Positions 7,019 to 37,200 of a DNA stretch of 39,809 bases are shown here, piece by piece. Where the stretch lies: NCBI GenBank assembly GCA_029250665.1, contig JAQXEV010000118.1, positions 1 to 39,809 on the forward strand, in the 5' to 3' direction. This stretch comes from Candidatus Thalassarchaeaceae archaeon (GTDB lineage: Archaea; Thermoplasmatota; Poseidoniia; Poseidoniales; Thalassarchaeaceae). The notes beneath the pieces are model-generated. The model did not search any database. It was not told the origin of the DNA and saw only the letters and a list, made by a program, of their open reading frames with translations. The translations under genes and the position numbers were made by a program. Each line of letters begins with the position of its first letter. Position 1 is the stretch's first letter.

Positions 7019-7072
7019 TTGATAGTATGGCCCGAACGTTCAAGTGGCTCGGAAAGGGCAACTTCGCCTCTG

Positions 7073-10000
7073 ATGAGCATGCGGTCTGCTGATTTCGGAA
7101 GGTTCGGCGAGCAAAAAGCAGTGCTTGCCGTTACCTGTTTGTTGCTGTTATCCATCTCGCCGATGATGTATGCTTCCGATAATGGTAGCCAATCTCTGAC
7201 CCAATTAGATGAGTCAAAAGCATTCACCGGAATCATCGAACCTTGGTCTGATGGGGAGCAACCTTGGCCTCAACCAGGCCGCCTCGCTCAAAGGACCTCG
7301 GTCGGACCAGCACACTCTCCTGATGGAGGCGCTGGAAGCGGTTCTCCTGCTGATGCTGTGGAACTGGCATCGGTTGTCGACCCGGTTGTGAATTGGGTCT
7401 ACGGGTCGTACTCCATCGGAACTGATGCGCTCGGCACCCCAGTGGCTGATCTCAGCGGACAAATCGATACCGAAGATGCAGCAGCCGAGCGCTGCGGTGG
7501 AGATTCTCTCTTCACGATTATCATTCAGACGGTTGCTGTTGGCGGTAACGACCACAGTGTGATGCGGATTGTCGAAGGTGAGGATGCTGATCTTGCTTGG
7601 GAGGTCGACTTGGGCGCGACTGAGATTGTCAAGGCATCTCCTGTCGTCGTTGACCTTGATGACGACGGAAGTCAGGAAGTCATCGTCGTTTACGATGCGG
7701 CCGGCACGATGTACGTTGATGCTTACTCTCCTCAATTGCAATGCTCGGTGACCGGTTGGTCATCTGGCGGATCGAAGAGCGGGGAATTGCTCTGGACCTA
7801 CAGCGATGATTCTCTGCGAATTAGTAGTAGCGAGGGACCTTACACCTCATCTTTGTTCGGTGGCCATAATCCCACCACCCAGCCACTTCTGGCCGACTTG
7901 GATCTCGATGGTGATGCCGAATTGGTTTTGGCCGCCATCGATGAGATTAGCGATAATCCAGTCGTCGTCGCACTTCCTCTTGCTGCGAATGGCGCTCCGA
8001 CCCCAATTTGGGAGTCGACTCTACAGGATGGAAGCCATCCTTCAGATCCGGCATTCGCGCAGGTTGATGATGAGACTGGCTACGTTCTGTTGACTACTAC
8101 CCTGGCTTCAAGCGGAGCGATGTGGGTTTGGAAATTGGACTCAGAGACTGGTGATCAGAAATGGGGCGGTCTGAGTCTGTCGAATCTTGACGGAGATTCA
8201 GATGTCCCGCACATTCGCTTACCTGGCCCTATTGTAGCTAATCTCGATTCGGATAGCACTCCTGAGATGATTATCACCATCCCGACAGATGCAGATGGTT
8301 CGAGTTCGGTCGATGGCGCCGAGTACCGCGGCCTCGAAATCGATGATGGTAGTGAAATTTGGTCATTCGAGGCGGTCAATGGCTACGCCGACGCCCCTCC
8401 TCTTGCAGTTGATACCGATGACGACGATGTAATCGATAGAGTCTGCTGGGTCTCATGGTATCAAGAGACGACAGCAAGACACGGGCACGCTGGGTGTCAC
8501 GATGTCTCTGGGAACAACCCTCAGCTAGATTGGCACCACGACCTTGAGCAATCGAGCGGCGCGCCGAACGATGAGATTGCTGTGGCGCAACCTGTCTGGA
8601 TGGATATCGATGGAAATGGTGCACCCGAGTTGCTAGTTGCATATGGGCGCACATTGTGGGCTTGGGACGGCGATACCGGGACTCAAGCGGCAATTAATGA
8701 CAATTGGAATGACGAGGTCGAGGTCAACCATCGAACTTGGTCGTCACCTGCTCTGGCAGATATCGATGGCGACGCAACCCTCGACATCATTCTCGGCGAT
8801 ACTGTCGTCTCGACTGCAGTTGCAGATGTTAGACCGCTGCTTGACGGGCGCGCGATTGAATTCAATCCGAGCGCACCCAACCCTGGCGAGGAAGTGACGG
8901 TAACCGCCTTCTTTGAGAACGCGGGAACGGCGGAAGTCGACCGAGCTGTAGATGCAATTCTCTATGCAGACGGTGTCGAAATCGCCCGCCACAGAGCAGA
9001 TACACTCGAGCCGACCGATCCTACGGGTTCTGCCGGCTTCGAATCATTCTCTGTCGATTGGTCGGGAGCACTTGGAGAGTACGAATTTGAACTGGTTCTC
9101 GACCCTTACCAGAATGTCACTCAATCACGCTACGATAACGACGAGCAGGTGACAAGCCTGACAATTGTTCCACCGTATAATGCAACATTCGAAATGCCGA
9201 CCAATCCGGTCAGAGTCAATCCAGGTGATTCAACTCTGAGTCAGCCGACCGTTCGTTCAACCGGACGATTGGCTGGCATCTGGAGCCTCAATGTTGACGC
9301 ATCCGCTTTACCGCAAGGCTGGACTTGGAGCGATGAGACCCCGGGAGGAATATCATCCATCGAGATAGGAACGGATGCAACATGGATGCCTTCTCTGTGG
9401 ATTCATGCACCAACCAACGCAGCCGGCTCAGACGCAGGCTACCTATCCCTAACCCTGACACTTGACGAAGATACAAACGTCAGCGCATCTGGAGTACTAC
9501 CTGTTGAAGCAAATCGAACAAGGGGTCTGTCTATCAGAGGGCCATCAGGCACCACGGGTAGCACAGGCTACGGTCTGATTGGCGACTCAGCAAAGGCTTG
9601 GCTCATCGTCGAAAATCTCGGCAATGCCGATGAGAACTCGATTTCGATGTTCTGGGACAGTACCGCTTGGGATTCAGCCGAGAATAGTCTCGCACTTTAC
9701 GACGAAGATGGAAATGAAATTCCAGCCCTACGCCTCAATGCAGGCGAGCAACGGATTGTCACAGCAAGGCTCGGAGTACCATCCGATGCGGGTCTCGCTG
9801 ACAGCGTCTCGACCCCTCTGACTATGTGCGTAGGAAGTGGAGAGGAGGAGACCTGTCAAACCGTGCAACTAGAATTCATTGCATCTGGCACCATCACCGA
9901 AACCGCTCATCAGTTGAGCATGCCGGAGAGCACACTCGAATGGACAGTTACCGCCGACCTCCCAGCCTCAAATGGAATTCTCGATTGGAAGATATCAGAG

Positions 10001-12724
10001 GCTGGCATGGGCATCGAAAATTGGCTCTGGTCCGCCTCTGGAGCACTTTCGATCTCCGGTGATGACATTACCCTATCTGGGATTCCAGGCTCGAGAGTCA
10101 GCGGAACCCTGTCACTCGAACTCCCTGTGGATTCGCCACCTGCCTACCACGCATTCTCGGATGCAAGCAGTCTCGGAGCTGATCATTCCCTCAGACTCTC
10201 AGTTGAGGTTCTACAGATTTACCGAGCCTCACTTACACTCATCTCCCCTACCGACTCACCACATATGGTTGAGGTCGAGGAAGCAATCCCGACCACCGTC
10301 CGTCTCTACAATCCTGGCAACGGCGAGGACACCTACACCATGTCACACACACTAATCCTCGATGACAACCTCGCCGAAGACCCAGGTGTCCAAGTCACCT
10401 TCAGTAGCGAGGAGATTACTCTGAGCGCCGGCAGCCTACGGACCCTCCCCGTCGAGGTTGTCCTTCCAGACACAACGCCGGCAAGAACTCCGGTTAACAT
10501 CGAAATCACCATGACTAGCGAGGGTGACAGTTCCATATCTTCGACAATTACCCTCACCCTTGAAGCACGTCAGGATCACCGCTGGGAAATTGAACTATCA
10601 GCCCAAGAAACCTCCGTAGAAGACAGAACCTTTGCAGTTAATCCTGGCGACTCATTCATCGTGGAAATTTCTGCCACAAACATTGGTAATCTTCACGATG
10701 ATATCGAAATTGCAGCTTCTGGCATCATAACGCCCGAAGGAACTGATACAGCGACAGATTGGGTCATAGTCGGTGATGCAGAGACATCAGTCGCTGTCAA
10801 TGCCAGCACCTATCTCGAATTAATCATCGAAGTTCCTGAAGGTGCTTGGAACGGAACCACATACGAGGTAAGTGGTACGGCCACCGCCTTCGATGTAGAA
10901 GTGGCTTCATTCTCATTCACAATCGAAGTTGCACATGTGGCTGGATGGACGGCTGTTGCAGCCGATGCAGACCTAGAGATCGACCCCTCGGGGTCGACGG
11001 TTTCACTGAGTATCATCCAGCAGGGCAATGCCCCGACTAGGCCTTACGCGTCTGTTTACGTGACAGGAGAGACAGGGTGGGTTGTCGAAGCGCCAGAGAA
11101 CCTACCAACTCTCGAACCGGGCAACACTGCTCCACTCGACCTCGAAATAACACCGCCTGAAACCGCAAGACACGGACGGACTGTCGAACTTCACATTAAA
11201 CTCAGAGAAGGGGATGGAAGCAGCGAGGCAACCATCACTCTACCACTGCGAGTTGCTGTCATCCACGAGTTCTCACTCGTGGGATTAGGGAATTGGATAG
11301 TCTCCAATGACGGCGGGTACCCTCACGCAGAATTGCAAAACCTCGGCAATGCGCCCACAACGATTTCACTCGAAGTCCTCAGCCTACCGCAGGGTTGGAC
11401 GGTCTCTGGACGAACACATGTTGTAATCGGAGTCGGAGAAGTCACGGGAGTCCCTCTCGAAGTTATTCCTGATTCAGAATGGGATGGATCTTCGAGAACG
11501 ATTCGGATTTTAGCTCAGGATGAGGCGGGGAATCAGCGTGAAATTTCTCTCGATACTCAGTATGAGGATCACTCATGGGCTTCCTCGCCGATTATCGTCG
11601 CAGTAGAGGGCGATAGCGCTCTTCTTGGAATTCACGGCACCTCTCCCGCATCGGAAGTGATGGATGATGCACAATTCAACCTTGATTGGGACTTGCAAGG
11701 GGGTTGGGTTTGGCAGGCGGTTTCTAACGGAGTCGGAACTCAATTGACGGTTGATTCAGACTCCGTTTTACCTTACAGCGCTTACGTCATCGAGCCATCG
11801 AGTCGTTTTGCTACATGCACTATCGATGGCTCGGCGGTTTCGGTCGATGCCGAATGCCAAGTTGGTAATGGCACCGAATCCTTCGCATTCACAGTTATGC
11901 TCATCGACGATGAAGGGTCGATGTTGGATTCTCACGATGGTTTCGTTGCAGCGAATACGACCTCGGATCAGATTAATCTGAGTGCGTCCACTTGGAATCC
12001 GAGTCCGGGAATGAGGACGCTGACTATTCGATTGCTTGATGAGCGCGGAGCCCTCGTCGCTTCGGCCGAGCGAGATTTCGAGATTCGTCGAACCGATTGG
12101 AATGTTGGACTCGTTGGCTTGGAGATCGAAGGGGAGGGTGCTTCTCAGAAGATCAAGGTCCTGACCAAGAGAGAGTATCATCACCTACTCACCGATGCTG
12201 ATTGCAGCATCGAGGTGACTGCTGGATCACACAGTGCAATTCACTCAATCGATGTGACGGGAATATATCCTCCAGAACCTAAGTTGGACCGACCAGATGT
12301 GGAGGATGGAACTGAGATGATTGTGACCATCCAATGCCTATTCCCTTGGGATGAAGATTCTGACTCGAGCGATGATGAGGCTCGATTGATTCTCTCGGGT
12401 GGTTCGATTGAATCTGGTGATGGATTCGAATGGGGGACAGCGCTCGGTTCGGCTGGCTTGGTCATCGTTCTAGCCCTGACTCTGACTTGGATTCTCTACA
12501 ACCAGCGGGAGCGCCGCAAATTGTTAGAGATGACCGAGTCGGTGATTCAGAAAAAGAGTAAGCGAAAGACCCCCGAATTACCGGAAGTGCCCCCGCCTGT
12601 AGCTGAACCTTCAGTAGCAGCCCCTCCACCCGTGATCGAAACGACTGAGGAAGTCCCAGAAATCGAAGAGAGGAACCTGGACGAGTTCGAGAACAGGTTC
12701 AAGCGTCTGACCGGTGGCGAGTGA
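7073..12724 (+). CDS. Giant surface protein: FG-GAP-like repeats, CARDB/Ig-like domains, C-terminal anchor
   Basis: An 1883-residue protein. The ATG at 7073 (or 7079) gives a proper signal peptide with hydrophobic core KAVLAVTCLLLLSISPMMYA; an upstream TTG at 7019 would bury it. Residues about 190-580 contain at least five FG-GAP/VCBS-like elements, such as VVDLDDDGSQEVIVVYD, ADLDLDGDAELVLAAID, MDIDGNGAPELLVAYG and ADIDGDATLDIILGD, suggesting a calcium-binding propeller. A CARDB-like domain follows (about 596-700), then a long run of Ig-like or NEW3-like domains with recurring phrases such as LGNAPTTISLEV and PQGWTVSG. A single membrane helix lies at about 1790-1810, followed by a 70-residue Pro/Glu-rich cytoplasmic tail. 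It is probably a cell-surface adhesin or binding protein; the ligand is unknown. Its TGA overlaps an alternative GTG of the next gene. Confidence 0.88.
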   Translation: MSMRSADFGRFGEQKAVLAVTCLLLLSISPMMYASDNGSQSLTQLDESKAFTGIIEPWSDGEQPWPQPGRLAQRTSVGPAHSPDGGAGSGSPADAVELASVVDPVVNWVYGSYSIGTDALGTPVADLSGQIDTEDAAAERCGGDSLFTIIIQTVAVGGNDHSVMRIVEGEDADLAWEVDLGATEIVKASPVVVDLDDDGSQEVIVVYDAAGTMYVDAYSPQLQCSVTGWSSGGSKSGELLWTYSDDSLRISSSEGPYTSSLFGGHNPTTQPLLADLDLDGDAELVLAAIDEISDNPVVVALPLAANGAPTPIWESTLQDGSHPSDPAFAQVDDETGYVLLTTTLASSGAMWVWKLDSETGDQKWGGLSLSNLDGDSDVPHIRLPGPIVANLDSDSTPEMIITIPTDADGSSSVDGAEYRGLEIDDGSEIWSFEAVNGYADAPPLAVDTDDDDVIDRVCWVSWYQETTARHGHAGCHDVSGNNPQLDWHHDLEQSSGAPNDEIAVAQPVWMDIDGNGAPELLVAYGRTLWAWDGDTGTQAAINDNWNDEVEVNHRTWSSPALADIDGDATLDIILGDTVVSTAVADVRPLLDGRAIEFNPSAPNPGEEVTVTAFFENAGTAEVDRAVDAILYADGVEIARHRADTLEPTDPTGSAGFESFSVDWSGALGEYEFELVLDPYQNVTQSRYDNDEQVTSLTIVPPYNATFEMPTNPVRVNPGDSTLSQPTVRSTGRLAGIWSLNVDASALPQGWTWSDETPGGISSIEIGTDATWMPSLWIHAPTNAAGSDAGYLSLTLTLDEDTNVSASGVLPVEANRTRGLSIRGPSGTTGSTGYGLIGDSAKAWLIVENLGNADENSISMFWDSTAWDSAENSLALYDEDGNEIPALRLNAGEQRIVTARLGVPSDAGLADSVSTPLTMCVGSGEEETCQTVQLEFIASGTITETAHQLSMPESTLEWTVTADLPASNGILDWKISEAGMGIENWLWSASGALSISGDDITLSGIPGSRVSGTLSLELPVDSPPAYHAFSDASSLGADHSLRLSVEVLQIYRASLTLISPTDSPHMVEVEEAIPTTVRLYNPGNGEDTYTMSHTLILDDNLAEDPGVQVTFSSEEITLSAGSLRTLPVEVVLPDTTPARTPVNIEITMTSEGDSSISSTITLTLEARQDHRWEIELSAQETSVEDRTFAVNPGDSFIVEISATNIGNLHDDIEIAASGIITPEGTDTATDWVIVGDAETSVAVNASTYLELIIEVPEGAWNGTTYEVSGTATAFDVEVASFSFTIEVAHVAGWTAVAADADLEIDPSGSTVSLSIIQQGNAPTRPYASVYVTGETGWVVEAPENLPTLEPGNTAPLDLEITPPETARHGRTVELHIKLREGDGSSEATITLPLRVAVIHEFSLVGLGNWIVSNDGGYPHAELQNLGNAPTTISLEVLSLPQGWTVSGRTHVVIGVGEVTGVPLEVIPDSEWDGSSRTIRILAQDEAGNQREISLDTQYEDHSWASSPIIVAVEGDSALLGIHGTSPASEVMDDAQFNLDWDLQGGWVWQAVSNGVGTQLTVDSDSVLPYSAYVIEPSSRFATCTIDGSAVSVDAECQVGNGTESFAFTVMLIDDEGSMLDSHDGFVAANTTSDQINLSASTWNPSPGMRTLTIRLLDERGALVASAERDFEIRRTDWNVGLVGLEIEGEGASQKIKVLTKREYHHLLTDADCSIEVTAGSHSAIHSIDVTGIYPPEPKLDRPDVEDGTEMIVTIQCLFPWDEDSDSSDDEARLILSGGSIESGDGFEWGTALGSAGLVIVLALTLTWILYNQRERRKLLEMTESVIQKKSKRKTPELPEVPPPVAEPSVAAPPPVIETTEEVPEIEERNLDEFENRFKRLTGGE

Positions 12725-18996: not shown

Positions 18997-21817
<2,821 letters not shown>

Positions 21818-21927
21818 ACCCAACCCTGCGCGGCTGCGAGAGGCCCATCCGCCTTCAACTGAACTATGTCGGCGAGAAAACGGCAAATCTCTAAATCAAT
21901 GAATTCTGGGCAAGTTCCCTCATCCTG

Positions 21928-21958
21928 TGTATTTCATTTGTATTTCAATTGCATTACA
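21928..21958 (+). promoter_or_regulatory. Three direct repeats phased at 11 bp, probable ribbon-helix-helix operator
   Basis: TGTATTTCA starts at 21928 and 21939, and TGCATTACA (two mismatches) at 21950, each exactly 11 bases after the last. The array ends next to a TATA-like ATTTAAG (21958-21964) and 44 bases before the GTG of a ribbon-helix-helix gene. Tandem half-sites on one face of the helix are how this regulator class binds DNA. Confidence 0.6.
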
Positions 21959-21988
21959 TTTAAGACCCCCCAGCCTACTTGCAGACTC

Positions 21989-21998
21989 AGGAGGAAGG
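21989..21998 (+). promoter_or_regulatory. Ribosome-binding site of the ribbon-helix-helix gene
   Basis: AGGAGGAAGG lies 4 bases before GTG 22003 and selects that codon over the in-frame TTG at 21979. Confidence 0.65.
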
Positions 21999-22002
21999 CG
22001 GA

Positions 22003-22368
22003 GTGACAGGTCAAAGCCCGATGGTATCGCTTAGGATTCCAGAAGACCACTTGCTCGAACTCGAGCGCAGGGTTGGGTTCGATGGTATGCGAAACCGGTC
22101 CGATGTGATCCGTGAAGCCATCAGGCGTTACCTTGCCACACCAGCCATTCCCTCCGGCACCCGCGTCGAGGTCGACCTCGGTCCGGACCTCAGCGCTCGC
22201 CTGGAAGACTTCTGTCGAATCCACGGCGAGATGCCTGATGTCGTTCTGAGATACGCGGCGCGCGAACACATCGCGCGCGCATCGGCTGACGACGCGACGG
22301 TCGATGCGGCGCTGCGCAAGCGGCTAGACGAGCTTCGTGCTCGCTTCGACGAATCGGCCGGACAATAA
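22003..22368 (+). CDS. Ribbon-helix-helix (CopG-like) transcriptional regulator
   Basis: A 121-residue protein. Residues about 7-42 form a ribbon-helix-helix DNA-binding domain: the strand MVSLRIP, helix EDHLLELERRVGF, and second helix NRSDVIREAIRRYLA. The remaining 80 residues form a second helical domain (VDLGPDLSARLEDFCRIHGEMPDVVLRYAAREHIARA) that itself resembles a weak repeat of the same fold, and a charged C-terminus. It starts at GTG 22003 behind a strong AGGAGGAAGG. Three 11-bp-phased repeats upstream suggest that it regulates itself and perhaps the divergent HD gene. Whether it is a stand-alone regulator or an antitoxin partner of the next small gene is open. Confidence 0.85.
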   Translation: MTGQSPMVSLRIPEDHLLELERRVGFDGMRNRSDVIREAIRRYLATPAIPSGTRVEVDLGPDLSARLEDFCRIHGEMPDVVLRYAAREHIARASADDATVDAALRKRLDELRARFDESAGQ

Positions 22369-22378
22369 GGTGAGAGAC

Positions 22379-22603
22379 ATGGGTGAGAATGGGATGCACT
22401 CGAACTCCGCGGGGGGGCGACCTAGTCGCCCCTCTGCACCACACCACTCCAAGGCAGTCCTGACCATCGGATTCAGTGCACTGCAACGCCGTGCGCGCCT
22501 TTCCAATGCGATTGGATACAGCGCGGCAGAGGCTCCTCGTCCTGAGCGCCCCGACCTATCACCACGCAGTCGCCACCACGATCTCGAAAAGCGAGATAAC
22601 TGA
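22379..22603 (+). CDS. Possible small basic protein
   Basis: A 74-residue frame starting at ATG 22379, 10 bases after the regulator stop, with GGTGAGAG before it. The ends are rich in Pro, Arg, Ser and His and look disordered; the centre (SKAVLTIGFSALQRRARLSNAIGYSAAE) could form one amphipathic helix. No family is recognised. Position, ribosome-binding site and a hairpin shortly after its stop support it; the biased composition and lack of any known homologue argue for caution. It could be a regulator partner, a toxin-like product or non-coding. Confidence 0.45.
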   Translation: MGENGMHSNSAGGRPSRPSAPHHSKAVLTIGFSALQRRARLSNAIGYSAAEAPRPERPDLSPRSRHHDLEKRDN

Positions 22604-22620
22604 AAATCAACACACACACC

Positions 22621-22643
22621 GTCCCGCCCTTTTCGGGCGGGAC
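22621..22643. terminator. Strong GC-rich hairpin after the regulator unit
   Basis: GTCCCGCCC and GGGCGGGAC form a perfect 9-bp stem with a TTTTC loop, 18 bases after the small gene's stop. No T-tract follows, so it is not a classical terminator; it may act as a 3'-end stabiliser or a structured RNA. Confidence 0.5.
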
Positions 22644-22726
22644 ACCCTTCTCCGACACCCTGATACAGCTATGTTCGCCTGATTGATTAGGCTGAACCTT
22701 GATGGGGAAGAGCCGAATCATCAATC

Positions 22727-25639
22727 ATGGCCGTGGGCATCTCGGACCTCGCGAGATTCGAGAGGTTGACTCCATTTCGTGTCCGAGACGTGCTCCTTGT
22801 CGCCAGCCCGTTCGACCATTATCTACTCGAAGAATCGGGATATCTCGCCGAAATCATGCGTCAGGAGTACTCGGACCTCAACCTCTCACAGGCGCCGCGG
22901 ATGATTCACAGTCCTCAAGCCCGCGACGCCCTTGAACTCCTGCGAACTAGAAATTTCGACCTCGTCATTACGATGGCGAGGGTTGGTGTCATGGATGCAT
23001 ATGCATTTGGTCGTGAAGCGAAACGCATTCATGCTGATCTCCCAGTAGTCATGCTGAGCCACAATACGCGAGAATTAGCAACCTTGCACGCGGGTGACGG
23101 CATAGACCGAATTTTTGTTTGGACCGGTGATAGTCGCATTCTGCTCTCGATTTGCAAACTTATCGAAGATGAGAGAAATGTCGCTAATGATGTCAAAAAT
23201 GCTGACGTGCAAGTGATTCTACTCGTCGAGGACAGTCGACGATTCTACTCCGCCTACCTGCCATTACTCTACACTCAACTCGTTAACCAGACAATGCGCT
23301 TAATGGGAGAAGGTGGCAATCTGCATGAGAGAGTTCTGAGACTGCGCGCCCGTGCGAAAATTCTCTTGGCAAGCGATTACCAAACCGCACAGGAACTCGT
23401 CGACAAATATCATCGTAATATCATTGGAGTTTTCACCGATGGAAAATTTCCCGACACGGTCGATGGAAGAGATAATGCTGGCTTGAAATTAGTCAAATAT
23501 GCTCGAGCAGGACATTCGAATCTGCCAATTCTATTTCAATCAAAAAATATTGAGTTGAAGGAAGATGCTGAGGCGCTTGGCGTCAGATTCGTTCACAAAG
23601 AGGATTCTCAATTGTACGGCCGGATTGCTGAATTTATGCTTGAAGAGATGAGTTTTGGAGATTTCGTATTCAAATTACCAGACGGAAAAGAAATCGGCCG
23701 AGCTTCGACTCTGAGGGAACTGACAAAGTTGCTAAAGGAGGCCCCAATTGAATCCGTAGTTCACCATGCCCAGCGTAATCATTTCTCACATTGGCTTCGT
23801 ACTCGAACCGAATTCACTCTCGCTGCTCGGATTCGCCCGCTCACACTCTCTGACTTCGATACCACAGAAGAGATTCGCGAATTCATCCTCGACTCGATTC
23901 AATCACATGTTCTGCAGATCCGCAGTAGGACGATTCGAGACCACAATGCTGAGAATCTGGAAACAGGATTTCAACGAATTGGCAGAGGCAGTCTTGGCGG
24001 CAAAGGCCGGGGTCTCGCCTTCTTCTTCACACGGATGCCGGACCTCGGGTTGGAAGGTGAATTCCCCGAGGTCAAATTCATCATTCCGAATTCGGTTGTG
24101 CTTTCTACGGATGTCTTCGGGGAATTCATTGAGCAAAACAATTTGTCACGCTTCGCACATGAGGCGTTTGAAGATGCTGAGGTCGATGCTGCATTCCTCG
24201 ATGGAGAACTGAACGAGAAAGTTCGTAATGATTTGACTGCAATTGTTTCGCGCTTAAGGAGGCCGCTGGCGATTCGCTCTTCGAGCCTGCTCGAGGATGC
24301 GAGTCATCAGCCATTCGCAGGAGTCTACTCCACTCATATGCTGGCGAATGATCACATTGATCTCGATGTGCGATTGGCTCGCTTGGAGGAGGCAATCAAA
24401 CTGGTTTATGCCTCAACATATCACAAGGGGGCGAAGGCATACGTCGCCGCCACCCCCTCGAATATCGAGGATGAACGTATGGCCGTGGTCATTCAAGAAT
24501 TAGTCGGGCGCGAGGTCAATGGGCGATTTTATCCGCATATTTCCGGAGCTGCCCGTTCGCGCAATCATTACCCAGTCGCCCCGCTGAAGGCTGAGGATGG
24601 GATAGCTGCGGTTTGCATCGGCCTCGGTCGCCAAGTCGCATCGGGTGAGAAGTGTCTGAGATTCAGTCCGGGGCAACCAAAAAGGATTCACCAATTCCAC
24701 AGCACTGAATCGATGCTAGATACTTCTCAGACGAGCTTCTGGGCGATACCGATGGGAGCATCTGAGAAGCCAGTATCGCCCGATGAGGCTGCAAACCTTG
24801 TCAATCTGAGTTTGAAGGATGCGGAGAGTGATGGGAGACTCGGCTTGGTCGGCTCGACCTACATCATGGCCGATGACAGGATTGTCGACTCGGTGAAGGC
24901 AGATGGAGGCCCCCGAATCGTGACCTTTGCACCGATTCTCAAACACAAGCGTGTCCCGCTAGCTGGAATTTTACATCATGTTTTGACCCGGTGTGAAGCA
25001 TATTTGAATTCACCAATAGAAATTGAATTCGCTTTCATCCTCGATGAGAAGACGGATACACAAATCTTTGCTCTCCTCCAAGTCCGACCTATCCTTGAGG
25101 AATCGGTCGACATCGACATCGATATGAGCGAGGTTGACCGCAGCCGAGCGATCTGTATGTCAAGACACTCGCTCGGCAACGGAGTAATCGATGACATCAG
25201 AGATGTCGTTTACATTCATCCCAACCGCCTCGATAGAATGAGGACAAGCAATCTCACAGACCACATCGAGGCAATCGACGCCAAACTGCGAGCTGCTGGA
25301 CGCCCATATCTGCTGATAGGACCTGGGCGTTGGGGTTCTTCAGACCCATCTCTGGGAGTGCCGGTTTCGTGGGAACAAATTCGTGGAGCGAAAGCCATCA
25401 TCGAAGTGCCAATGTCAGACATCCATGTCGAACCCAGCCAAGGCACCCACTTCTTCCAAAACATAGTCACTTTCAACATTGGATATCTGACGATTACAGA
25501 CGAGGATATGCTGGATTTCGATTGGTTGGACAACGTTGACAGTGAGGAAGAAATCGGCCCGCTGCGTCACATCGGACTCGCCTCTCCGCTGAAAGTTGTA
25601 CTCGACAGCAGAGATTCGGAAGCAATCATTCTCAGATGA
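22727..25639 (+). CDS. Tandem receiver-like domains fused to a PPDK/PEP-synthase N-terminal (ATP-grasp) domain
   Basis: A 970-residue protein in three parts. Residues 17-152 resemble a response-regulator receiver but lack the acidic pair, and the phosphoacceptor position is Met83. Residues 162-308 are a second receiver with its key residues in place: Glu168/Asp169 in LLVEDS, Asp238 in FTDGKFP, Lys291 in RFVHKED. The rest is a pyruvate-phosphate-dikinase N-terminal domain: GGKGRGLAFF, PLAIRSSSLLEDASHQPFAGVY, IVIQELVGRE-like segment, FALLQVRPI, then LIGPGRWGSSDPSLGVP and DPSQGTHFFQN-like VEPSQGTHFFQN. The swivelling phosphohistidine domain and PEP TIM barrel are absent, so it is not a PEP synthase. 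Similar proteins are remembered from Bacteroidetes. It probably acts as a phospho-regulated ATP-dependent enzyme; the reaction is unknown. Confidence 0.85.
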   Translation: MAVGISDLARFERLTPFRVRDVLLVASPFDHYLLEESGYLAEIMRQEYSDLNLSQAPRMIHSPQARDALELLRTRNFDLVITMARVGVMDAYAFGREAKRIHADLPVVMLSHNTRELATLHAGDGIDRIFVWTGDSRILLSICKLIEDERNVANDVKNADVQVILLVEDSRRFYSAYLPLLYTQLVNQTMRLMGEGGNLHERVLRLRARAKILLASDYQTAQELVDKYHRNIIGVFTDGKFPDTVDGRDNAGLKLVKYARAGHSNLPILFQSKNIELKEDAEALGVRFVHKEDSQLYGRIAEFMLEEMSFGDFVFKLPDGKEIGRASTLRELTKLLKEAPIESVVHHAQRNHFSHWLRTRTEFTLAARIRPLTLSDFDTTEEIREFILDSIQSHVLQIRSRTIRDHNAENLETGFQRIGRGSLGGKGRGLAFFFTRMPDLGLEGEFPEVKFIIPNSVVLSTDVFGEFIEQNNLSRFAHEAFEDAEVDAAFLDGELNEKVRNDLTAIVSRLRRPLAIRSSSLLEDASHQPFAGVYSTHMLANDHIDLDVRLARLEEAIKLVYASTYHKGAKAYVAATPSNIEDERMAVVIQELVGREVNGRFYPHISGAARSRNHYPVAPLKAEDGIAAVCIGLGRQVASGEKCLRFSPGQPKRIHQFHSTESMLDTSQTSFWAIPMGASEKPVSPDEAANLVNLSLKDAESDGRLGLVGSTYIMADDRIVDSVKADGGPRIVTFAPILKHKRVPLAGILHHVLTRCEAYLNSPIEIEFAFILDEKTDTQIFALLQVRPILEESVDIDIDMSEVDRSRAICMSRHSLGNGVIDDIRDVVYIHPNRLDRMRTSNLTDHIEAIDAKLRAAGRPYLLIGPGRWGSSDPSLGVPVSWEQIRGAKAIIEVPMSDIHVEPSQGTHFFQNIVTFNIGYLTITDEDMLDFDWLDNVDSEEEIGPLRHIGLASPLKVVLDSRDSEAIILR

Positions 25640-25732: not shown

Positions 25733-27745
25733 ATGACCGCCGAGGCAGCCGATTCCTCCCTGAGATACTTCGCCCACGGCGAGGTGCGAGAATCTCAGGC
25801 TGAGATGGTAGAAGATGGCTTTGAGGTGCTTCTATCCGACGGTTTTCTGATGGCCTCAGCACCAACTGGCATCGGAAAGACGGCTGCGGCTCTCGCCAGT
25901 GCAATCTCGGTTCAACGTTCCTCAGCTGACAACATCCGAATCCTATTCCTGACTGGTAGGCAATCTCAGCATCGCATCGTTGTCGAAACCGCGAAACAAA
26001 TCAATAAGCGGATGGAAGGAGGCGAGCCGCTATTGCGAGTTGTCGATTTAATTGGCCGAGAGGGGATGTGTCAAAATGTCGAACGAATCAGTGGTCGATG
26101 TGATTGCGAAGATCAACTCGACTCCTCAATGAGAGAGGAATTACGTGGTGATATCCGCTCACAGATGTGGCGCTCACCGATGCATGTTGACGACATGATT
26201 GGTGCCAGTCGTCGAATTCACCTCTGTCCATGGGCAACTGCGCGCGAGGCTGCCAAGAGTTGTGACATTCTAGTCTGCGATTACAATCACATCTTCATCG
26301 ACAGTGTCAGAGAAGCATCTCTTCCTGCTATGGGAATAGAATTGGAGAATGTTATTCTAATCGTTGATGAGGCCCACAATCTCCCTGATAGAATTCGTAA
26401 TGGGATGGAGCGTCGGATCATCTCGAAGACCTTTCGCGACGCTCGATTCGAGGTTCAAGAGCACCTTGAGAAAGAGATAGAGAGGGCAGCAGCTAGGAAT
26501 GAAGAAACCGATTTGGGTGAAATGGAATGGGCCGAGAGATCTCTCAAGCGTCTACAATCTGAAATGCCTCGCTGGTTCTCTGCTTGCGAGAAGGAATTAG
26601 CCCGATCTAAGGATGATGACATGAGAATTGATACAAAGGAGTTATTGCAGGAAATGGAGGCCATCCTAAACGAATCTCTCGATGAAGCACCTAGTGCAAG
26701 ACACACCACTCTCAAGCGATTAGTCACTCAACTGTACACGGTTCGTGTCGATCTTGATGAGGAAGATGAAGATGAGAAGGAAACAAGTTGCGAGAGACTC
26801 GGTGCTTTCATCTCGACCTGTGGGCAATACGAGGAATCGCCGGCTCTTGTTCTCGTCTTCGACAAGTTGCTCGACGAGCCTCGGGTACGATCCTTTCTAC
26901 TCGACCCAGGAGTGGTCGCAGAAGCCCTGTTCAAAGCCTCCCGAGGCGCTATTCTGATGTCGGGGACTCTCTCTCCGCCAGAGATGTATCGAGATCTCCT
27001 GAGGCTTCCTGAGGAACGTGGAGTTTTAGCCAAGGAATACGATTCACCATTCCTCTCTGAACGCCGACCAGTTCTCATCGCCCAGAATACAACCTCGCGC
27101 TATACCGAACGCGGCGAGGGGAATACAAACAATATTCGCGACCATATCATCGAAGTGATTCGAAACACTCCCGGTCACATCGCACTCTTCGCGCAGAGTT
27201 ATGCCATGCTCGACACGGTTCTCGATGATTATCGATGGGTCCCTTGGGGCGTCCGTGTCGAAAAGGAGACTGCTCGAATGTCAAAGCGTCAAGTTGGGAA
27301 CCTCATCGAAAATCTGTATCGGAAACGCCGCACTAATGATCGCGTTCTACTTTGTGGGGTTCTCTCCGGAAAACTTGCAGAAGGGGTAGATTATCCCGAG
27401 AATATACTCGATGCCGTAATCTGCATTGGTCTGCCTGTCCCACCTCCTAGCGCACGCCAGAAGGCCTTGACCGATTATTGCGAGGACCGATTCGGCTCGC
27501 ATGCTGCTCGCCGCTATTCAAGCCATCAACCTGCGGTGAACAGCGTTCTACAAGCGATTGGTCGGCCAATCAGAAAGGCCGAGGATAGAGCCCTGGTTGT
27601 AATCCTCGAGAAGAGAATGAAGGAGAGGCCGTATCGCTTCTGCCTCCCTTCAAGTCTACAGGTAATGAAATCACAAGATTCAGCCCGAACCGCTCGTGTT
27701 GCAAAACGCTTCTTCGAGCGCTTTCCAGACCCTGCGATTGAGTGA
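25733..27745 (+). CDS. XPD/Rad3-family (DinG-like) ATP-dependent DNA helicase
   Basis: A 670-residue superfamily 2 helicase. Walker A is APTGIGKTAAAL (43-54); the DEAH box is VDEAHNLPDR (211-220). Between them Cys113, Cys123, Cys125 and Cys165 (in LCPWATAREAA) are placed as ligands of the iron-sulfur cluster typical of XPD; Cys177 and Cys182 are additional. The C-terminal motor has ILMSGTLSPPEMYRD, LLCGVLSGKLAEGVDYPEN and the motif VI segment QAIGRPIRKAEDRALVVILEKR. A charged helical insert rich in Glu (about 235-360) corresponds to the arch domain. Family members unwind DNA 5' to 3' in repair. The ATG at 25733 follows GGCAGGA. A small hypothetical gene lies 51 bases downstream. Confidence 0.93.
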   Translation: MTAEAADSSLRYFAHGEVRESQAEMVEDGFEVLLSDGFLMASAPTGIGKTAAALASAISVQRSSADNIRILFLTGRQSQHRIVVETAKQINKRMEGGEPLLRVVDLIGREGMCQNVERISGRCDCEDQLDSSMREELRGDIRSQMWRSPMHVDDMIGASRRIHLCPWATAREAAKSCDILVCDYNHIFIDSVREASLPAMGIELENVILIVDEAHNLPDRIRNGMERRIISKTFRDARFEVQEHLEKEIERAAARNEETDLGEMEWAERSLKRLQSEMPRWFSACEKELARSKDDDMRIDTKELLQEMEAILNESLDEAPSARHTTLKRLVTQLYTVRVDLDEEDEDEKETSCERLGAFISTCGQYEESPALVLVFDKLLDEPRVRSFLLDPGVVAEALFKASRGAILMSGTLSPPEMYRDLLRLPEERGVLAKEYDSPFLSERRPVLIAQNTTSRYTERGEGNTNNIRDHIIEVIRNTPGHIALFAQSYAMLDTVLDDYRWVPWGVRVEKETARMSKRQVGNLIENLYRKRRTNDRVLLCGVLSGKLAEGVDYPENILDAVICIGLPVPPPSARQKALTDYCEDRFGSHAARRYSSHQPAVNSVLQAIGRPIRKAEDRALVVILEKRMKERPYRFCLPSSLQVMKSQDSARTARVAKRFFERFPDPAIE

Positions 27746-28288: not shown

Positions 28289-31200
28289 TCACGCAGCGGC
28301 TTCAGCTAAATCGTAGGAATCCCTCTCTGGGACTTCCTGCAAATCATCGATCTCTTGCAGAACCATGGACAAAGCATGCTGGGCGTTTTGTCGGTGTCCA
28401 TCGCCCAGCCGGTGAGAAGAGTATCTTGCTTCCTCAAAGATTCTGTCGAGAGCGACTAGAGCCTCCTCACTAATCGGTAAGGCCTTGCGAATAGCCATCT
28501 CAAACTCCCTGACTGTCTCGAAGTCCCTTCGTAGGAATCCGTGCCGCATCAGAATGTTACAGAGGCTCTCATAGCAATTGAAGATGGCTTCGCGGATTTC
28601 ATCGCCTGCTGCGAGGAGTTCCGCAGTATAGCTGAAGATTCCGGCCAACTCCTCGAGTGCAGCTTGTCGGCGCTTCCTCAGTGAGAGAGCCAGTCCAGCC
28701 ACGGTACCGAGTATGAGCGCAGCACCAATCAAGGCGATTATTTGCCAGAATGTTAACAGTGGAGCTGGGTCTTCGTAAGTCATCTGGATTCCACCGTGTT
28801 CATTGGCTAACCAAAATCGGTCAGCCGGACTGATCAATTGTGAATCCGTCTGGAATATGAGTGAGAGTTCGCCCCATCGAGACATCTCATAGAATGATGG
28901 TTGATCATGAATTACGAATTCGTAATCCATGACTCCATTCACATCTGTAAGCTTCACATTCTGGAAGTGGATCATAGAGCTGTTGACAAGTCGGGCAACT
29001 ATTGAAATTCCCTCCACTGGAAGACCTGTGTCGGTCGCTGTCACACTAATGGTTCCGTTGATTCTGCGTTGTTCTTCCTTGATGTGTTGAGCATCTGGGT
29101 TGAAAGTGAATGTAACCGGAACTCGGATATTCACGATGTGTTCGATTTCAGCCGCGTTAAGATATCGATCGACATCGGCGAGCGCAGCAAGAGACAGCGA
29201 TAGTTCGCCAGGTGGCATTGTTGATCGAGCAGGTGAGCGTAGGTCGAAATGCCCAGTCGAATCATCCCACATCACAGTCGAACTCTCAGCAGCACCATTC
29301 CAGACTAGAACAACATCCATCTCTTCGATGACATTGCCTTCGCCTCCGACCTCAACAATTCGGCCGACAACTTCGATGTTGTAGGCGTCATTCGAGCGGA
29401 TGATGATGTCAGTTTGCCAAAGCACCTCGATGACCACATCCGCTCGCGCAAATACAGTCATGTTGTACTCTATAGGGAGATAGAACGTCTGGCCTTCAAA
29501 GAGGAAGCGAATGTCATGACCGCCGCGAGCAATAAGATATCCAATCGAGTGGTCGAACATGAAATTACCATCGTGACCGGTAGTCATCCTGTGAATCTCT
29601 TCCCCATCGAGTGTAACTACGATTTCTCGCCCGACCAAACCAGGTGCTCCGGGCGTGTCAGAATCGAATAGTCGCCCGCTGAAATTCCATTTCTCGCCGC
29701 GCGTCACAGAGACATCGTCAACCTGAAGATTCATTCCCGTATGGTAAGCAATGGTCAGATTCCCTTCGACGCTTCCCGGACGGTGGTAACCTTGTGCAGG
29801 TGCAGAGATAGTGATTGTGTGGAATCCAACGTCGAGGAAGTCAGAGATCACCCAATTGTAAGCCCAATCACCATTCTCATCGGTGGTTGTTATGCCAATC
29901 AAAGTTCCATCGATGAATATCTCGATTGAATGGTTCGCGAGCCAACCTTGAGGCAGGTTGTCTCGAACGGTTCCTCGCAGCCTCATTTCATCGCCGACTG
30001 CATGGGCTGCTGGAGGCTCCAAGGAGACGATTGCCGGACCGAAGACAGTGAACACAGTGGTTGAATTCGATGGGAGGATGAACTCTTCTCCAGCGAATGT
30101 GATTTTGACCAAACGAGGTCCAAGCTCCATATCAGGAGGTATCGGCACATAGATGCTGAAAGTGCCATTCTCAGTGACCTGCAATCCTGTGAGGAATTGG
30201 TTGTTCATCGTCACCTCAAGGTACCTATCGCCCAAAGTTCGCCCGGCTCCATCGGTAAGCATTCCCTCTATCAGGAGTAGCTCATTCCTATCCACCTCCC
30301 CTGGTGGTGTGGTCAGGACTACCTGCGATGTCTGAGTGACGTTGAATTCCTCAATTGTGCTCGACGGGAGGTAATACTCAGGATTTAGTGAGTCGCCTTG
30401 ACCCATTGGGTCGACCCAAGTGAAGCCTCCGAGGAATTTCGCAGTCACGGTGTGCGCACCGTAGTCAGAATCCAGTGGAATATTGTATGTGACTGACCAA
30501 ATCCCATCTGATGCGTTCGAATGTGTTGTGTATGTTGAACCAACATCGACACCGTCTATCCAGATGTGAATGATGCCTCCAGAAACTAAGCCGCTGTCAG
30601 TAAGAGTTTGACCATGCTCATCGAGCAGAGTTCCGGTGAATGTGATACTCTCTCCAGCAATCATCGAACCGGACATCTCTGTAATCTCCAACACAGTTGG
30701 TGCCAGAACTATGACTCGTGTCCAAGTCAAATCTCCTTCAAGTCCTGTCGTACCGTTGATACCAGCGAATTCAGCCGTAATCAGCATCGGGCCTTGAATT
30801 CTGAGGGAATCGACGGGGATAGTTAGTGTCGCCCGCCCATCAACATCAGTAGGTATCGTCTGCATGTGGATGCCATCAACGAGAATATCGACATTCGCGT
30901 TTCCAACGAGTTGTCCTGCGTTATCGATTAATGAGATGTTGACGCTAACGTCGTCGCCGCGAATGACCCTGCGGTCGGGATCTAGGTCGGCTGGATCGAC
31001 GATTGTAATCAGCGAATAACCACGGCTATCGAACAAGCCTGTTCCACTGCTGGAACTGTAGTAGTTGACAGATGGAGTATAACTCGCAGTGAGGTTGTGG
31101 GTTCCTCGTGGGAATGAGAGACCAAGCGTCACAATTGCGTTCCAAGATCCATTTGGATTTACGGCTCCTCCAACGACTTGGAAGCCAGAGTCGGAGCCAT

Positions 31201-34200
31201 CTATCTCGAAAGTCAGGAAGGCTACGATAGAGGAACCCGATCTGTCCATGATACCTGTGCCGTTACTCGACTGTAGAGTTCCACTCACATTGAACGACTC
31301 TCCTGCCACCGGATTCTCAGTCACCTCAGAGACGTTGAGCACGGTTGGTGAACGCACGATTATCTGATTCATCACGGTGGTCGTCGAATGTAATGTCGAC
31401 GAACCGTTGAACATCAGGGTAATTCCGATTTGACCCAATGGGTGGTCATGAGGCACGTTGAAGGAGAAATTTGCCATTCCATCGCCACCAGTAATGACCT
31501 CCCCAATCCACGTGTCATGGAATTTAGCCGCGACTGTCATTCCACCCAATCGTTTGTCGTTATCCGAATACTCGGTGAGACGTGCCCCGAAGTTCACAGA
31601 AGAACCTCTATCGACTATGGTTTGGATAATCGGTGTCCTATCCATGAAACGCGTCACACCGCGCACGAGAATAGAGGCGTTACCGGTGCCCGTCAGGTAG
31701 AACGGAGTAGTGCCGTTAATCACGCTGACAACCACTGTCTTAGTGCCGCTGGAAATTCCATCGCCACGTGGGTCAGTTGGTACGGAGACGGTGAATGAAC
31801 CGTTATTGGACGTAGTATGGCTCGTAACCAGCGTCTCACTTGTATCGTTTAGGAAGAAGACCTCGATTGCCATCGGCCCCTCAACGGATCTATTGTTGTC
31901 GAATCCATCAAGCACATGACCTGAGATTGTGAATGCTTGTCCAGCCGTAACCTCTGCCGGAATCGAATCGATTGCAACCAAGCTGTTGACTTGAACAGTG
32001 AGATTGACGAAGGTCTCATTTCCAACCCAGCGACCAGCGTTTGCGACCGTCAGATTGTCAGTCAGGTCATCTGGGGCATGAACTCTCAAATCGTAGAATC
32101 CAGGGGCCGTATTAGCGAGTAAATTCGGATTAAATCTGGCAACTCCATCGACATCAGTCACCGTGCTGTCGATGACTGTCTGGTTCGCCCCGCCCCAGTC
32201 GAACCAAAGGTCGACATTGGCATTAGGAACTAAGGAACCGTCAGCCTTGTCGGTCACGGTGGCGTTGAGAATAAATGTTGTTCCCGCGACGACGATAATC
32301 GAAGAGGGCTCTGCCTCAACGACGAACTCGCTCTGTACTCCAAGTGGGACACGAACGGCGTCGCTCACAGTGAAGTATGGTCCAGGAGACGTTGCTCCGT
32401 TCTCGAAGTTGAGAACGAATCGTAACATGTAGACGGACGACGGTAGATCATCGGGTACGGTGAATGTGTAGTTGTATTCGCCCGTAGTCTCATTGATCCA
32501 TCCATCCGCCAATCTGTGGATAATTGGAGGAGCAGGGTTTCCATCAGGCCCGGGTGGCAGATCGGATGGTTCCTCAAGTTGAATCACAATGGATGAGTTA
32601 TTACCGATTATAGAGGTCAGATGGATGACATCTTGAGCAATACCAGAGACCCAGTTTGTAGTTCCTCTCGGTGTCCAATCCGAGCCGAGCGTGACAGTGA
32701 CATTTGACCGTCCTTGAATACGAATCTGATCTTGCACAGTTGCAGGTCGGAGCCAAGTTGAGCCTGTGAAATTCATCTCCCAGGTGTAATCTCCCGCGAT
32801 CATATCCCATTGGGGAGTCCAAACCACAGTGTATCTTCCCGATGAAGGATCCGTCGTGTTCCAGACCTGCGTGCCATTGAAATCAACAGTATACGAACCA
32901 GGGAAATCTGCTACAGAAGAGCCAGTGTGATCGGATAATTGCACTTCGATTGCAGCAAGATGTCCGCGAGTGGTTGGATTCAGGATATAATCGAATTCGA
33001 CGTAAGATCGGATTCCATAAGTCTCAGGGAAATTCTCCTCATCGGCTGCGAATAGACCATCTGCAGCATAAGTGAATTTTACTTCAATCTCGCCGGATGG
33101 TATTGTAACTGAAGATTCGTCGAATAACCATGACAACGAGAATTGACCAGGAACCGAAGTCCAATTACTCTCATTCAGAGACCAAGTCGTTAGAGTAGTG
33201 TAGGGTCCATTGGTTCCTGTCCTGCGAACTTGGAAGGTTAGTGTGCCATTGAGTGACTCAGGAATAGGTCCCCGACTGACTGCAGTTCCATTGATGAAGA
33301 CGAGTTCGTTGATGTCGAGGATGCTGATATTGGAATCAATACCCTCGAGAGTAACGGTGAGATTAGGAGATGGTGTGATGTTAAAATTGAAGGACATTGT
33401 TGTTGGACGTAGATGATACTCAGGATTCGTGAGATTGTTTTTGTCCTCTTGATGCCATCCAAGGAATGCGAGACTCGCATTGATAAATCCGAGCGGTTCG
33501 CTCTCAGAAATTGGAACATTGAATTCGTAATAGCCACCTGAACCGACATCAGCGATTAGATTCACAGGACCATCCTCGACCGTCGTATAGTTGAGGAGAA
33601 CTTGGAGGGTATCGAGGAGAGCAGGATCGGTCTGTGGTGCATTGAACCATTCGAGCAAACCGGTAACGGTGGTATTCACTCCGGCGCCGAGCATCGGTTC
33701 AGATGTTGGTGTGGGACTAGTAATTGAGAGATTGACATCATCGGTGATGTTAATCATCCACGGGAATGAGATACCCTGTATGCCTACGTAACCCAGTGTA
33801 TGAGTTAGAAGGACCAGAGATCCATATCCTGGTTGAATCATTTCTGAGGGGGCCCCATCGAATGAGAAGAAACCGCTTGCATTCGTCGTCACGGTGCCGA
33901 TTAGGTGATTCTCAGTCGCGGCTCCGCCGGGAACATTAGATGTGTCATTCGAAGGAACAAGGTAGAGATCGAGTGTTATTCCTTCGACGACGCTAGCATT
34001 GCTTGAGAATTGAAGAGTACCATTCAGAGTTATGTTTCCTGAGGAATAATCTCTCTCATAGGAATCTGGTGACCAAGTCTCGTTGACGACCTCGACAACA
34101 GACATCTCTGGACAAGCTTCGAATGGAATCCATCCGAGGTCGAGTTCACCTTGATTAGCATTGGTTTGGAGATGGACTTCAACCCACCATGAGAAGTCGT

Positions 34201-37200
34201 AACCATAGACTTCGAAGCCATTGTCTACCCATGTTCCTCCCGAGAATCCCGTGACCTTTCTAGTCGGCAGGTCAAGTGCCCTGAGCATAGCTGCGAATAT
34301 GGTCGCGTACTCGTCACAGTCTCCCTCGCGCACCTCCTCTAGAATCCACAAGGTTGTGTCTGTCAGTAGTTGTGTAGATGCTGAGTCACTTCTATTCGAA
34401 CCAGCGTGATTCCGTAAGAATGTCGTGGTGTTATTCCCATTGATGAGGAATTGTTGGATAGCCGTCACTTGGTCCCAAGCTGAAGTCCATCCAGTCTCAT
34501 TTACCACTTCCCAAGCGATGCGAGAGATATTCTCCGACGACTCAATCTTTCCGAGATCCTTAGCGTAGGAGCTATTCTGGAATCCGGTGGTGTTGTCCTT
34601 GATTACATCAGTCATAGTCACCTGAGTTGCAGTGACATAGAGATTAGTTACAATCGAAGAATCGATGAGGACGTCACGTGTATAATTAGAGAAATTCATT
34701 CCCACATCAACATCAATCCAATCTGTGTAATTGACCGCATTGTAAGGCGCGATGAGTTCGTCACCAGGGTAGAGAATGCCATTATTTCGGTAGGCTAGTT
34801 CCCAACCATAGAGGGCCGAGTCGTCCCAGAAGTCTTGGTGAGCGACACCCTGCATTGTTGACCAACTAGGGAAAATTGGTGTATAGCCAACGAGGCTAGT
34901 GTTGACACCCCAAGAAACTCCTGTGTACGCATCATAGGTGTGCCAACGCCAGTAATGCGTGATGTTGTAATCAATGCCAACAGAGGTGTTCTCAGCGAAG
35001 AAATACAACATATTCGCCTGAATATCATCCGACGCATCCCATGGATTCATTTGTGCATCCGCACAGTCATCATCCCAGAATGCGGGGGGACATTCGTCCC
35101 CATCTGGAATCCCACCACCATCGGTATCAGGATCACGCCAATCTGTTCCAATCTCTTGCTCAATGGTGTCAGGGATTCCGTCTCCATCGGTATCCAACGG
35201 ATTCATGTCGTCATCTGGATTATTCTGTGGATTCGTACCATCGAGATACTCTTGGAAGTCAGTTACTCCACCATTATCGGAGTCAGTGTTATTCCACAGG
35301 GTAGTGTAGTTGTCCAGTGTCATATTGCCGCCGCCGATACCGAACATCAATGGACAACCAGTATTATTCTCGAACCAATTGTTCAGACCATCTCCATCGG
35401 AATCAGCGAGATTGTTGCATGGTTCCATCGGGTCAGTTCCATTGATTACCTCATTGAGATCGCTGACGCTATCTCCATCAGAGTCTGTCATGTTCGGTAA
35501 GGAAATGAATCCCCAAGACCCGAGGGCTTCTTCCCAATCGGCCAAGCCATCTCCATCACTATCCTTGTAATCGTCGTCACAATGAGCTTCATTGGCGGTT
35601 CCAAGAGCTGGGTCCCAGCACCATGAGCCGTTCAAAACTACGATGAATATCGCCCCTGTCGGCATGTCATTATCCACACCCATGAGCGTATTACCAAGGA
35701 TTGAAGAATAGGAAAACGGCATTCTGCTACCATTAGGTGATTCGAACCAAGCCATCGGTTCTCCGTTCTGCCTCCAGTCGATTGGTGTGGGATCCAATTT
35801 CGTGGTATTATTCACCGTTAGGGAGTTATCAGAGGGGTCCCAGACAACGATATCGAGGTATAATTCGTAAGTCGATGTACACGGATCCGTTGCATGGGCT
35901 GGAGTCAATTCGATGCCGTCTTCGATGCCCCCACCATCGGTATCGGAATTATTCCACTGAGTACACGTCGCATTTTCTTCCCAATTTTGTATACCGTCAC
36001 CATCAAGGTCGCCAGCATCTTCGATTCGCGTCGGATCGGTTTCATTGAGATCAACAACGCCATTGAAGTTCGTATCCTCCTCTCCGTCGTCGAATTGGTC
36101 ACCGTCAGTATTGTTGTTTCGCGGGTCTGAAGCCTGTGGCGGATTGCCATAGGAACCATTGACTTCGACACCGTCTGAGATTCCATCACCGTCGGTATCG
36201 ATATGCGTCGGATCGGTCAGTAGCACCAAAGCCTCGTAGGAATCGTTCAGACCATCTCCGTCGGTGTCGTTATTGTGAGGATCAGTGTAAGTCACACCGT
36301 CGACCTCGGCAGTGAATAACTGACATCCACCAGGCCCTATATTCTGGACTGGATTACAAGGAGATTCTGTGCTCGTCCTATTGTCCGGACCGGGCCTCCA
36401 ATATTGACGAGGCGGTTGAACCGAACCATTGCGAGTACTCCATGCCGGATTGACATATTCGTATAGATTCATCAATCCGTCATCATCAGGATCTCCAGTT
36501 GTTCCATCATCTCCGGAATTCGATGTCGGGTCAAGATTGTTTGCAACTTCCCAACCGTCGGGCATTCCATCTCCATCGGTATCCCAGCCGTTCGGATCCT
36601 CGTCGGTTGAATTGTCACCATCATCATCATCGGTAGCGCAATCGGCATCTCCGTCGAAGTCACCGTCCCAATTGTCAACCAATCCATCATGGTCATCGTC
36701 GAAGTTATTGAAACAAAGATTACCGACAGGATCCTCGTCAGCCCCATCGGAATTCAATCCCTGAATAAGTTGCATAGCGCTCTCCTCATCCCAATTGCTG
36801 ACGGGAACCGTCCCATTCCACCAAACGCCGTTATCCAATTCGTTCGGAGTTGAGGCCGAATCCCAATTCGAAGGAATTCCGTATTGGTATTCATTTAGAT
36901 TAGTCAGAGAGTCTCCGTCCGGATCGCCCGTCGAGCCATTGATTCCAGTCGCAGATAGTGGATTAAGACCGTATTGCCATTCCCAGCCATCTGGAAGTCC
37001 ATCGTTATCCGAATCCCAATCCTGCGGCTGGGTGCCGATGTAATACTCCAGACCGTATGGCAATCCATCACCATCATTATCTGTCGAACCCATCACTTCC
37101 CAAGTTGCAAATTCGATTGCAGAGTACGATGTTAACAACATCAAGAGACTGAAGAGAATAGCTGAACGCTCCTTGCGTCGAGCGATTCGAGCATAATTCC

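Follow-up and report, generated by a model that had tools for sequence, protein, structure and literature searches.

Three short boxes spaced exactly 11 bp apart, found in front of the gene for a ribbon-helix-helix (RHH) protein in a Marine Group II (Thalassarchaeaceae) archaeon, very probably constitute the autoregulatory operator of that gene, and their occupancy most likely lowers the activity of its promoter. The predicted operator appears real, conserved and gene-specific, and would be ordinary in kind, as an instance of RHH autoregulation; the probable single-chain architecture of the regulator would be unusual. Our analysis is centered on a window of 39,809 nucleotides, the whole stretch of DNA under study, and extends to the genome from which it derives and to the genomes of its relatives.

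The RHH regulator gene (22003..22368, + strand) encodes a 121-aa product from a GTG start codon, which is matched by the Pfam RHH_1 model with a score over its cut-off (E = 3e-5). Direct reading of the sequence and pattern search agree in placing the boxes TGTATTTCA, TGTATTTCA and TGCATTACA at positions 21928, 21939 and 21950, bearing out the sequence-only reading, which had described three repeats exactly 11 bp apart reaching up to a TATA-like element. Exact matches to TGYATTWCA in the 39.8-kb window are confined to these candidate operator boxes (21928-21936, 21939-21947 and 21950-21958), all of them on the + strand, with box 1 starting 75 bp 5′ of the GTG start at 22003. Neither a double nor a triple array was observed in any of 300 dinucleotide shuffles of the window or 5000 of the intergenic region. 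Each 9-bp box is a near-palindrome of the form TGTA-W-T(T/A)CA. The TATA-like element TTTAAGAC (21959..21966, + strand), which takes the form TTAAKA or TTATAT in relatives, abuts box 3, and a Shine-Dalgarno-like AGGAGGA of the RHH gene follows at 21989..21995 (+ strand), associated with a block (21984-21994) that shows an identity of 0.89 within the genus. No match above threshold to a known RNA element was obtained in Rfam.

Boxes 1 and 2 read forward, and box 3 is annotated on the opposite strand. In most relatives the third box reads TGCAATACA (complement TGTATTGCA), and the centre T found in the window is a minority variant, A occupying that position in 22 of 27 loci. Because the form prevalent among relatives reverses the orientation of boxes 1 and 2, the array is, from its aligned letters, better described as forward-forward-reverse than as three direct repeats. 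Since box 3 abuts the TATA-like element, its spacing and the general layout of archaeal promoters would place it at the position expected for TFB recognition (BRE).

Conservation of the array tracks the regulator. An RHH orthologue is present in 54 of 59 relatives, with a GTG or ATG start codon at the matching place in nearly all of them, and all 27 Thalassarchaeaceae loci examined (16 from the same genus and 11 from other genera) carry the array 72-77 bp 5′ of the start codon, each matching 22-27 of the 27 consensus letters. Within the genus, column identity, measured on the commonest letter, averages 0.90 for the array, 0.55 for the DNA immediately preceding it and 0.80 for the TATA/leader segment; the corresponding values for the family are 0.87, 0.47 and 0.68. 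In the first two boxes, TG, T6 and the closing CA are nearly invariant across the 27 loci (26/27, 27/27 and 27/27 in box 1; 27/27 for each in box 2), and box 3 displays a fixed TG, T6 and A7 (the latter two in 27/27) with slight variation in its last two letters. Wherever the family retains the regulator, the alignment reveals the repeats as the best conserved stretch of the intergenic region, in line with the operator initially proposed from the letters of the window. The sister family usually presents a diverged array, in which gaps of 10, 12 and 22 bp are preferred, and phase is therefore kept though single spacings drift. In this family and in the most diverged members of the source family, a box pair was detected in 24 of 27 upstream regions at a level equalled by at most 3 of 100 shuffles, and the upstream regions of five RHH genes (G018, G028, G030, G051 and G052) are too diverged for the strict two-box pattern.

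The array also appears to be unique. We scanned genomes by pattern search using a two-box pattern with one mismatch and, subsequently, a stricter letter set with two mismatches, and under both settings the sole match in the genome of the window was the array itself; the scan for further TGYATTWCA arrays suggested by the sequence-only reading yielded none. Fourteen of the 15 extra two-box sites examined in sister genomes fall inside open reading frames and the remaining one on a bacterial-looking contig; recurring weak two-box matches in the genus likewise fall within coding regions. A regulon of the RHH protein was hence rejected, the scans with one and two mismatches having uncovered no conserved second promoter site. 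The contig carrying the only non-coding extra match examined (G010:C79, L219) contains bacterial-looking genes and is probably assembly contamination. In the five genomes with no detectable RHH gene (G003, G013, G019, G029 and G043), the one-mismatch scan returned no two-box match, an absence that constitutes weak evidence in two of them because they are only 65-74% complete.

The RHH protein is likely a tandem RHH, with two modules in one chain as in the F-plasmid TraY, according to a profile match and the single-sequence structure model. Module 1 (residues 7-45; 22021..22137, + strand) follows a strand-helix-helix order and matches NikR. The probable module 2 (residues 53-92; 22159..22278, + strand) follows the same order, and residues 53-108 yield a profile match to the solved CopG-family regulator 6iya (E = 6e-4) extending from the first strand through both helices; this module also weakly matches a RelB-like antitoxin model. 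The single-sequence model (mean pLDDT 57.5) assigns the secondary structure E7-11 H14-24 H30-44 E54-58 H60-74 H78-92, and the alignment-based model shows moderate confidence, with its strands not formed. Fold searches gave non-significant E-values, many of the weak matches of the alignment-based model being RHH proteins, and Arc and CopG-DNA were among the folds weakly matched; hhalign comparison of module 1 against module 2 was not significant. TAL repeats returned by a PDB search with module 2 alone were judged to be a short helix-repeat artefact. The NCBIfam models scoring nearest to the protein are aCcr1 (NF053762) and CdrS (NF058555), and membership in either family was rejected (27.4 bits vs. 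a cut-off of 60, and 22.7 bits vs. a cut-off of 100); none of the 116 genomes of the phylum exceeded the aCcr1 cut-off. An apparent in-frame insertion in the G001 orthologue was discarded as a run of N. Separately, an open frame of ~539 aa at locus L227 (G000:C38, ~20577-22190) was seen to join an N-terminal RHH-like domain, in frame, to a class II fumarase (Lyase_1, FumaraseC_C), with frames of the same length and an RHH match occurring in G002-G004.

The RHH gene is followed after 10 bp by a small conserved ORF (22379..22603, + strand) encoding 74 aa with the core GFxGLRxRAxLSNAVGY, with an in-frame GTG at 22370 as a possible alternative. Its reading frame is conserved order-wide, for instance behind the RHH orthologues at L085 and L071, with a third-codon-position bias of 12.6 vs. 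6.8 and 5.4 differences, and it matched no family in Pfam, NCBIfam or PADLOC and none significantly in PHROGs. Unusual conservation also marks the DNA where this ORF begins (GGATGGGATGCAC in many relatives, followed by a G-rich hairpin). A DinG/XPD-type helicase gene (25733..27745, + strand) is syntenic downstream of the RHH gene in nearly all lineages of both families (f1 and f2), with a PPDK_N-domain gene (22727-25639) inserted between the small ORF and the helicase in the window and in some other f1 lineages. Between the small ORF and this inserted gene lies a perfect, terminator-like G+C-rich stem, GTCCCGCCC TTTTC GGGCGGGAC (22623-22645). Elsewhere, the window holds an open reading frame of 2979 aa (28289-37228, − strand) and another of 1901 aa (7019-12724). 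On the other side of the RHH gene, a conserved protein of ~150 aa (PSRGLYLYLRTL...ITDDEA...), with no Pfam match, replaces on the opposite strand the HD phosphohydrolase of the window in the sister family and in the f1 genera g2 and g4 (L071, L074, L066 and similar).

We infer that the RHH protein itself binds the boxes, and that binding is cooperative. Three RHH units would line up next to one another along roughly the same face of the DNA, as set by the 11-bp pitch, with one unit per 9-bp near-palindromic box; each unit would be a dimer, or a single chain if both RHH modules pair with each other. The unit on box 3 would cover the place of TFB beside the TATA box, and plentiful protein would keep the boxes occupied and the promoter switched down. 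Because box 3 occupies the expected site of the TFB element, the operator is probably repressive, negative autoregulation being the simplest reading of its sign.

An activating site, through which the RHH protein would stimulate its own promoter from a position immediately 5′ of the BRE, is an unlikely alternative to this repressive scheme: boxes 1 and 2 do lie upstream of the BRE/TATA, in a position that could also serve activation, and most binding of CdrS in Haloferax falls 41-110 nt ahead of start sites, its loss lowering some targets (PMC8406309), but the direct contact between box 3 and the TATA-like element would leave no room for TFB alongside. It is very improbable that the boxes are instead bound by another regulator, the RHH gene being merely regulated. 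Adjacency by itself does not establish autoregulation, yet the array is found only at this gene and is missing from genomes that lack it, its boxes share the paired-TGTA geometry seen in RHH operators such as that of RelB (PMC2812701), and the genome of the window was found to encode no stand-alone RHH_1 protein other than the product of this gene.

The array could also be read as an operator shared with the divergent HD phosphohydrolase gene (20504..21817, − strand), the HD-domain product of which distantly resembles dGTPases. The sequence-only reading had suggested such joint control, and the window indeed shows both genes diverging from a 185-bp gap, an adjacency that most of the family shares. 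In five genomes (G020, G023, G028, G030 and G033), however, the HD gene lies kilobases from the RHH gene, where the boxes nonetheless remain (clear in genera g7 and g4, weak in g2). Paired boxes at the HD promoters of these genomes score no better than background (best pair 7.0 down to −2.8). Moreover, the divergent neighbour in the sister family is a different protein with no Pfam match, and conservation is poor in the part of the intergenic region nearest the HD gene. Since the array stays in place when its upstream neighbour differs, it belongs to the RHH gene, rendering a shared operator quite improbable. Control of the HD gene as the main role of the array, which does not follow that gene, was rejected; a side effect on HD expression may occur where both genes are adjacent. 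The original proposal of an operator for the RHH gene, which is conserved with the regulator and unique in the genome, is hence supported, and its extension to the HD gene is not. Least probable among the alternatives is that the RHH gene and the small ORF form a toxin-antitoxin module, with the array as its usual operator. Such a module would be consistent with the layout, which combines an RHH gene, an array in its promoter and a short ORF 10 bp past its stop codon, and with the resemblance of module 2 to solved CopG-family regulators and, weakly, to a RelB-like antitoxin model. Against it, the locus is single-copy and vertically inherited, in order-wide synteny with the helicase; no mobility or patchy distribution was seen, the orthologue being present in 54 of 59 relatives, and no recognisable toxin was found, the small ORF lacking any significant family match.

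The autoregulatory operator favored here has partial counterparts in several characterized systems. The operators of P22 Arc, CopG and MetJ comprise helically phased RHH sites that differ from the array in sequence, box number and spacing. RelB, an RHH repressor, binds the hexads [A/T]TGT[A/C]A with its dimers on one DNA face (PMC2812701). As in RelB/relO of E. coli, an RHH protein is predicted here to bind at its own promoter to tandem near-palindromic boxes on one helix face, and the relO hexad boxes TTGTAATTACAA have TTGTAATTCAA / TTGTATTTCAA as their equivalents in the array (PMC2812701). relO consists of two 12-bp boxes, the array of three spaced at 11 bp; RelB belongs to a toxin-antitoxin system, whereas no toxin was recognised here, and it has one RHH per chain, where the protein described here probably has two. 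F-plasmid TraY comprises the whole RHH dimer fold in a single chain, and three of its molecules bind as a train at three sites, two direct and one inverted (PMC12117103). The forward-forward-reverse order of the array would correspond by analogy to this arrangement, although TraY acts at oriT in the conjugation relaxosome and the array is a predicted promoter operator. Among archaeal RHH transcription factors, a class to which the protein is predicted to belong, CdrS of haloarchaea and aCcr1 of Sulfolobales provide further references. CdrS occupies 18 sites in the genome, and its gene is transcribed together with ftsZ2 (PMC8406309, PMC7439475), unlike the regulator analyzed here, for which only one site was detectable and whose gene has no ftsZ neighbour. 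The haloarchaeal RHH regulator CdrL has one reproducible chromosomal binding site, beside its own gene (PMC7439475), resembling the single, here predicted, genomic site adjoining the RHH gene. CdrL differs in its zinc-ribbon tail, its action on cdrS-ftsZ2 and its restriction to haloarchaea.

Knowledge of how Marine Group II archaea, an uncultured group, regulate their genes is very limited. The results put forward a predicted regulator-operator pair, with base-level predictions, that is conserved in one family and traceable into its sister family, and that is small enough for in vitro work, involving one small protein and one 100-bp DNA. A broader reading, which we consider doubtful, would have an order-wide module in which a single-chain double-RHH protein occupies one genomic site as a forward-forward-reverse train of three molecules, converging on the geometry of TraY and setting the expression of the small protein and the DinG/XPD-type helicase. 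The order-wide link to the helicase and the small protein suggests that the circuit guards a conserved function.
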